Below, one piece after another: positions 1-1,428 of a stretch of DNA of 32,288 bases. Made by a program: the position numbers and the translations under genes. The notes under the pieces were generated by a model. The model worked only from the letters and a program-made list of their open reading frames with translations, ran no database searches and was not told where the DNA came from. Source of the stretch: Treponema sp. (GTDB lineage: Bacteria > Spirochaetota > Spirochaetia > Treponematales > Treponemataceae); NCBI GenBank assembly GCA_024687165.1, contig JAILEY010000065.1, forward strand, positions 1 to 32,288, in the 5' to 3' direction. Position 1 is the first letter of the stretch, and the number at the start of each line of letters is the position of its first letter.

Positions 1-859
1 TTTCCATTCTGCACCCATGTGTCGGTAGTTAAAGCCGAAAAAATATTTATACATTCTGTAAAAGAATAAAGCGAAACACCAGTGCAGTTAGTCGATGAAT
101 AAAAATCAAATTTTACTTTATGAGAACCTTCAGGCATTCCACCTTCTAATTCATCCTCTGTAATTTCTCCAAAAAGGAAACGCATTTTTCCGGAATTATT
201 TATTGCACGAATATAAGCGCTTTCATGATCATTATAATTTACAGATGCCCTTGCAGATTTTATTTCTGTGCCGGTACAGTCAACTTCAAGATCAAGAATT
301 CCAAACTCACTGCTGTCTTGAGGTACAGAAAGAGTAATATTCTGATTTGTAACAGTTTTCAAATTGCTGATTTTAACATTCTCAATTTTGCCTTTTAAAA
401 TTTCGTAGCGCGTATCAAAAGGTTTAATTGCAAGACTTACTTCAATCTTATATTTTTTCTCTGAATCTGCAGCGGGAATACCGATTTTATATTTTACACT
501 TTCGCCGTCAGTTACAGTTTCACCTGTATAAACTTCAGTACTATCATCAGCGTTAACGGCTTTTATTTCAAAATCAAAATTCTCAGTCGGAATTGAAGGA
601 AATGCAGTTCTAAAATTTTCTTTATCTGTCTGTGCTGGAATTTTAAGTGTCTGTGCAATTTTTCCCGGAAGTGCGCTGTAAATCAATTTTCCGGAAACTT
701 CTACAACGTTTGATTTTGAATCGTTCTTTTCAACTTTACTTGAATCAACAAAATTGCTGCAGGAATAAAAAATCGTGCTAAAAATCAGAGCGGCAAAAAG
801 CTTAAATCTGAATTGCCCCCCCTAGAAGAATGTATAGCAAATTTTGACATAAACTTCAT
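1..859 (-). pseudogene. Putative surface lipoprotein, partial, out of frame at a G7 tract (possibly phase-variable)
   Basis: The reading frame is open from base 821 to the window edge (about 273 codons, continuing beyond). It encodes a basic stretch, a hydrophobic segment (LFAALIFSTIFYSC) ending in a lipobox-like Cys, then a Ser/Lys/Glu-rich, beta-rich-looking exported region with no domain I recognise. No ATG, GTG or TTG lies in that frame upstream of the lipobox, and a TAG closes it at 822-824. An ATG at 859, with GGAG 11 bases upstream, enters the gene one frame off because the G tract has seven Gs; as read it ends after 24 codons (stop at 785-787). Eight (or five) Gs would join the two parts. 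It starts 29 bases after the 889-1428 gene on the same strand, so the two are probably cotranscribed. I infer an outer-surface lipoprotein in an OFF state; a sequencing error in the homopolymer is the main alternative. Confidence 0.72.
816..822. repeat. Homopolymeric G/C tract (seven) at the frame break of the lipoprotein gene
   Basis: Seven Cs on the plus strand, read as seven Gs by the minus-strand gene. The tract lies between the ATG at 859 and the lipobox, exactly where the reading frame must shift by one base. Long G runs are otherwise absent from this AT-rich window. Variable poly-G tracts are known to switch genes in Treponema pallidum. Confidence 0.85.
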
Positions 860-888
860 ACTTTTATAAACTCCACAAAGCAAGTTTA

Positions 889-1428
889 TTATATGGAAAG
901 AAAAATGTCAGCAGTTTCATCATCTTCAGCAAGTGAATCCCGGATTGCTTCAGCTTGTTCCAGATCATCAACAACAATCGCAACAGAGCCTTCTGTAATC
1001 GGCATTCTGATCATAGCACAAATAAGAATCTTGCCACATGCAATGATACAAAGCTCTTTATTTAAATTTTCTTTCGTAATTTTTGCAAATAAATCTCTAC
1101 CCTCATCAGTTAAAACAAAATTCACCTGAGGTTTTATTCCATAGAAATCTTTTTCAATCTGTACATTTTCAATATATCTGCCATCCATAAGAACTTCTTT
1201 TTTTACGACGACATAGGAATTTGTTAAATCAGCATCAGTAGCATTAGCCTTCATAAAGATTTCACAATCTGCAGGAATTTTTTCAAGACCCTTTTCATAT
1301 GATTCTGCATATTTAAAATCACGAGTCGCATCAGAATCTGCAAGCTGAAAAGTAACTTTATCTTTGGCATGCAAAATCGATCCGGCAGTAAAAATCATAA
1401 TCAAAATTAAAAAAGCTTTTTTCAACAT
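889..1428 (-). CDS. Small exported protein resembling the SecD P1 head subdomain
   Basis: A 179-residue protein with a clear signal peptide (MLKKAFLILIMIFTAGSILHA). Residues about 95-155 read like the periplasmic P1-head region of SecD: a DFYGIKPQVNFVLTDEGRDLF stretch, an ITKEN.NKELCII segment, then a PITEGSVAIV segment, in the same order as in SecD. There are no transmembrane helices after the signal peptide, so it is not a complete SecD. GAGG precedes the ATG, and a good promoter lies just upstream. The lipoprotein gene follows 29 bases downstream. The role is unknown; it may be a periplasmic factor that borrowed the SecD head fold. I am confident of the coding region and fairly confident of the SecD resemblance. 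Confidence 0.85.
   Translation of the reverse strand: MLKKAFLILIMIFTAGSILHAKDKVTFQLADSDATRDFKYAESYEKGLEKIPADCEIFMKANATDADLTNSYVVVKKEVLMDGRYIENVQIEKDFYGIKPQVNFVLTDEGRDLFAKITKENLNKELCIIACGKILICAMIRMPITEGSVAIVVDDLEQAEAIRDSLAEDDETADIFLSI

Follow-up and report, generated by a model that had tools for sequence, protein, structure and literature searches.

The stretch of DNA analysed here (the window, 32,288 nucleotides) is contig JAILEY010000065.1 of an assembly (GCA_024687165.1) from a host-associated Treponema sp., and its first positions hold, on the reverse strand, the 5' part of a lipoprotein gene whose start codon and lipoprotein frame are separated by a tract of seven Gs. It is likely that this gene is subject to translational phase variation through slippage of the poly-G tract, and that the copy in the window has been assembled in the OFF state. 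Two further copies in the same genome have eight Gs and are open through the tract, and equivalent poly-G leaders are found across the genus in both registers, which supports the OFF assignment already made in the first-pass annotation of the window. The organism is not T. pallidum, and its genus also includes T. socranskii ATCC 35536. The window corresponds to contig C16 of a genome of 2.38 Mb in 87 contigs (G000), which is 97% complete. In the following, G7, G8, and so on denote tract lengths, while handles with three digits denote genomes (G) and loci (L).

The tract at 816-822 is the only run of C or G of at least seven bases in all 32,288 bases, and the remaining G runs on both strands reach five bases at most. 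The first-pass annotation had placed the break in the gene at the only long G run of the window, and this is confirmed, as is the rest of its description as far as it can be read off the sequence. From the ATG at 859 twelve codons lead into the G7 tract, after which translation ends at the stop codon at 785, so that seven Gs indeed result in the 24-residue product that had been proposed (MKFMSKFAIHSSRGGNSDLSFLPL). Past the run the lipoprotein frame reads QFRFKLFAALIFSTIFYSC-SN... and remains open for 271 codons until the contig ends; the further disabling mutations that would have spoken for a broken gene are absent from this part. ATG 859, preceded by GGAG, had been regarded as the only plausible start. 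This holds, because a TAG is located directly 5' of the tract and neither ATG, GTG, nor TTG is present between this TAG and the lipobox, which excludes an alternative start codon for the lipoprotein frame. The assignment as lipoprotein is supported by the sequence FYSC with the cysteine at 761-759, which was called a lipobox by the relaxed spirochaetal rule. In the open paralogues the complete signal peptide, consisting of a positively charged n-region, a hydrophobic stretch, and the lipobox cysteine, is encoded in one frame. In the window copy, only the portion of the signal peptide 3' of the tract sits in the lipoprotein frame.

At least three near-identical copies of the gene are present in the genome, the two others being 96-97% identical at the DNA level, which the first-pass annotation had not noticed. 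Similarity between the copies starts about 55 bases 5' of the ATG, and the flanks farther upstream are unrelated. The copies are therefore dispersed duplicates, each with its own promoter-like stretch. Their tracts comprise seven Gs in the window, eight Gs in C86, and eight Gs followed by AGG in C45. In both C86 and C45 the reading frame continues without a stop from the ATG across the tract into the lipoprotein part, and in C86 it extends over 853 codons; intact copies are thus present in the same genome. Rates of nonsynonymous (dN) and synonymous (dS) substitution are 0.021 and 0.086 between the window copy and C86, and 0.017 and 0.044 between the window copy and C45. The changes between the copies accordingly favour synonymous sites (dN/dS about 0.2-0.4, from few sites). 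Given the 271 open codons and the mostly frame-keeping changes, the window copy does not look like a decaying gene. The duplicated block carries a promoter-like stretch, a ribosome-binding site, a poly-G leader, and a signal peptide, and the window copy is the OFF-register member of a small family. The C86 protein matched no Pfam family, including none for Tpr or OmpW, and a profile search against solved structures gave no credible match. Neither a search of viral_contigs nor a protein scan of the GTDB contigs for a sibling of the same species revealed a relative. Three tandem stretches in genome G038 that resemble the lipobox region represent a short non-coding repeat and are taken as unrelated. 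Genes resembling the Rpn/PD-(D/E)XK transposase family, assigned by eye, adjoin several of these surface-protein genes in the genome of the window (L052:2961-3833, L056:1431-2438, L057:7139-7498).

The window protein is a member of a wide family of large lipoproteins, with matches in 75 of the 200 genomes of the genus, and the majority of the family members are without a G tract. A relative from another species (G004), which is only 29% identical, has a G8 tract at the equivalent leader position and in frame (MKIFGITKHLNRGGRAR). A pattern modelled on the leader, CATNTNNNNAGGGGGGG, matched 20 times in 196 genomes compared to six matches of the reversed control. Genome G101, a one-contig assembly close to T. 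socranskii, encodes five paralogous lipoproteins with InlB-type repeats (L142, L145, L146, L150, L151). Their leader tracts are G8, G8, G8, G8, and G11, and all five are out of register. T. socranskii ATCC 35536 itself (G109; identical to L199) has one lipoprotein gene with a poly-G leader, also out of register, and G100 has one out-of-register tract within a signal peptide. Genome G104 has one in-register leader tract, in front of a lipoprotein with BspA-type leucine-rich repeats (L154). Altogether, 12 leader tracts were compared. Four of them, namely those of C86, C45, G004, and L154 of G104, are in frame, and the other eight are out of frame, with long open frames kept downstream of all eight. 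Runs of at least eight Gs are followed by a lipoprotein signal peptide in nine of 82 cases compared to one on the opposite strand, which served as control, with two of the nine loci coming from the leader-biased search. In addition, orthologous tracts differ in length between related species (G13 versus G9, and G8 versus G7). The latter pair concerns a tract near the 3' end of a gene, which has eight Gs at L096 (G140) and seven at L098 (G151) in loci of about 95% identity. Runs of 15 Gs are present at L189 and L191 of G105, a one-contig genome of the genus, where their context is intergenic or unclear.

Within the genome of the window, G runs were counted by pattern search, with expected values derived from the composition of the window itself. 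There are 16 runs of at least seven Gs compared to about 3-10 expected for 2.38 Mb (0.04-0.14 per window), and 11 runs of at least eight Gs compared to an expected 0.4-1.6. The longest run, a G11 (G000:C70:23384-23394; L022, L056), directly follows the lipobox cysteine of another lipoprotein, which has an FGE-sulfatase domain. As the G11 is out of frame, this gene is a further candidate for the OFF state in the genome of the window. Not every G run can be a switch, because certain other long runs are found in ordinary housekeeping genes or between genes.

G tracts have also been found at a different type of position. A G run separates a TTGACA-like from a TATAAT-like box in eight of 68 tracts compared to one on the opposite strand. 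L161, which belongs to these eight, is located within a coding frame and probably represents a fortuitous match. Of the open reading frames that follow such promoter-spacer tracts, five start with a signal for lipoproteins or for secretion, and a sixth listed frame lacks one. The length difference between G13 and G9 concerns one orthologous spacer promoter of G101 and G104, respectively, whose loci are 94% identical. Runs of eight to 13 Gs between boxes resembling -35 and -10 elements were noted at L152 (G101:C1:2682100-2683700), L155 (G104:C1:1683500-1685100), L158, L170, L172, L173, L175 (G043), and L188 (G105). The listed spacer tracts are mostly found 5' of genes for secreted proteins or lipoproteins.

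The features of the window locus are compiled in Table 1. The last codons of the neighbouring SecDF P1-head gene overlap the repeated promoter block.

Table 1. Features at the lipoprotein locus of the window and its duplicates.
Feature	Position	Strand	Remarks
G7 tract (C7 on the plus strand)	816..822	-	start frame and lipoprotein frame diverge here
24-codon frame	785..859	-	starts at ATG 859, crosses the tract, and stops at 785; product at the present tract length
Lipoprotein frame 3' of the tract	3..815	-	271 codons open; truncated where the contig ends (position 1)
Signal peptide part, QFRFKLFAALIFSTIFYS-C	759..815	-	lipobox FYSC, Cys at 761-759
Block repeated within the genome	3..916	-	copies at C86:35815-36730 (96%) and C45:30731-31274 (97%, truncated where its contig ends)
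GGAG, ribosome-binding-site-like	871..874	-	same in three of three copies
Promoter-like stretch CTGACA, 17 nucleotides, TAAACT	883..911	-	TATAAT at 893-888; kept in three of three copies; consensus match only
Upstream gene, 179 amino acids, SecDF P1-head domain	889..1428	-	same strand

Based on these data, the following scheme is proposed. The window holds the 5' part of a large gene for a putative surface lipoprotein that is present in at least three dispersed copies. Every copy has its own promoter-like stretch and ribosome-binding site as well as a leader of about 13 codons, which enters a G tract directly in front of the hydrophobic segment of the signal peptide. Replication slippage at this tract would shift the register between the ATG and the remainder of the gene, so that a given copy would provide the full lipoprotein in some cells and the short peptide alone in others. 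In the assembled state C86 and C45 are in register (ON) and the window copy is OFF. The locus would work like the known poly-G contingency loci. In such loci the length of a homopolymer sets the reading frame or the promoter spacing, and here it sets the former (G7 between ATG 859 and the lipoprotein frame, G8 in the open paralogues), and the frame 3' of the tract is kept in the OFF state, as judged from its open codons and the dN/dS ratio. What the sequences show directly are the frames, the three tract lengths, the open frame 3' of the tract, the duplication, the excess of G runs in the genome, and the counterparts in other species. The slippage itself, its reversibility, the display of the protein at the cell surface, and an antigenic or adhesive purpose are what we infer from this arrangement.

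Several observations weigh against this scheme. Length variation in T. pallidum Nichols clones was observed in 24 of 46 tracts of at least eight bases and in no shorter tract (PMC10013896), and the window tract has only seven Gs while both paralogues have eight. Because the G7 is below this length, the window copy may be near a locked OFF state and revert only rarely. Four of 12 leaders in frame would be the one third expected of free slippage, but one third is equally expected from random drift. The dN/dS ratio is based on about 27 differences, and gene conversion from the intact copies could explain the same value. Surface exposure is assumed from the lipobox and the relatives with repeats. 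Finally, the assembly consists of 87 contigs, and the window contig terminates inside the repeat.

Some of these points lead directly to other explanations. The contraction of the tract could have broken the window copy for good and left either a pseudogene of recent origin or a silent donor for recombination with the other copies, and the short tract would now rarely slip. The tract being shorter than in both open paralogues and than the T. pallidum tracts seen varying would fit such a fixed loss, and gene conversion between near-identical copies could keep the frame clean. However, 271 codons have not acquired any other disabling change, dN/dS is below one, and the same arrangement has been found in both registers among numerous unrelated copies and species, so that a fixed loss is considered unlikely. 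An error of assembly or sequencing, by which the real tract length would differ or reads of paralogues would have been merged, is suggested by the draft state of the genome, by the general error-proneness of G runs, and by two of the three copies stopping at contig ends within the repeat. Against this, substitutions peculiar to the window copy are found 5' as well as 3' of the tract, and unique flanking sequence is only about 100 bases away, a distance over which ordinary short reads could therefore anchor the tract. An error in this assembly would also leave unexplained the excess of long G runs and the leader tracts that are out of frame in T. socranskii and in G101, whose genome is a single contig. 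An error is therefore rather improbable.

It could also be imagined that programmed slippage during transcription or translation yields some full-length protein even at the present tract length, in which case the gene would be set to a low level instead of being OFF. Within the genus, leaders that are out of frame often precede intact downstream frames (eight of 12), as this would predict. The known bacterial cases of slippage in expression mostly involve runs of A or T, which counts against such a mechanism here. Moreover, tract lengths vary (7, 8, 11) and more than one register is seen, while a programmed site should hold a constant register. Transcriptional slippage at homopolymers is known, for example, from Buchnera, as cited in a passage of Orsi et al. 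2010 (PMC2831843), but for the window gene it is hardly probable. The least probable explanation is that the G7 arose by coincidence close to the start codon of an otherwise ordinary lipoprotein gene. G7 runs are not very rare, with 3-10 expected per genome, and the long runs in housekeeping genes and intergenic regions of the same genome demonstrate that such runs do arise elsewhere. However, the tract recurs at the same place in the two paralogues and in the 29% identical relative of another species, and coincidence is therefore unlikely. The G run is also better conserved than the neighbouring non-G bases, and long G runs at lipoprotein leaders are in excess over the control strand.

Translational phase variation by poly-G or poly-C tracts is known from Neisseria, Campylobacter, and Helicobacter, for example for hmbR and hpuA. 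The window gene resembles these cases in that the length of a G run within the open reading frame would switch the frame. It differs from them in that other genes and other organisms are concerned and that several copies of the family share one duplicated leader. In T. pallidum, poly-G contingency loci comprise the promoters of tprE/G/J, tprL, and tp0126 as well as poly-G/C tracts within genes of Nichols clones (PMC7864442, PMC10013896), and amplicons with seven Gs have been reported for tprL (PMC7864442). Common to these loci and to those described here are the spirochaete background, G homopolymers of about 7-11 bases, the association with surface proteins, and, as far as the paralogues of the window genome go, length differences between copies or strains. 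However, promoters are the site of action in the well-studied cases from T. pallidum, whereas the window tract is inside a translated leader before a lipoprotein signal peptide. In addition, the window family belongs to a different treponeme genus, is dispersed in multiple copies, and is, according to Pfam, unrelated to Tpr or OmpW. Homopolymer tracts at the 5' ends of genes have been described as general regulators in prokaryotes, and the passages concerned include tracts that, like the one in the window, give rise, in the out-of-frame state, to a short peptide without function (Orsi et al. 2010, PMC2831843). Treponema is not mentioned in the searched text of that article. A literature search covering few subscription papers did not reveal a description of phase variation for the genus, including T. 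socranskii, T. succinifaciens, and the rumen treponemes.

Studies of poly-G phase variation in treponemes have dealt almost solely with T. pallidum, and there chiefly with promoters. Annotation pipelines are prone to call genes such as the one in the window broken or to misplace their starts. It is conceivable, although we propose it only tentatively, that promoter, ribosome-binding site, poly-G leader, and signal peptide constitute a portable cassette that has been copied in front of several surface proteins. Together with the promoter-spacer tracts, such a cassette would provide the commensal and oral treponemes of the genus with a large surface lipoproteome whose members switch independently. 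If the leader tracts do switch, treponemes of the gut, the rumen, and the oral cavity would vary their surface by poly-G phase variation as well, and since some of the species, such as T. socranskii, are cultivated, switching would then be directly measurable.
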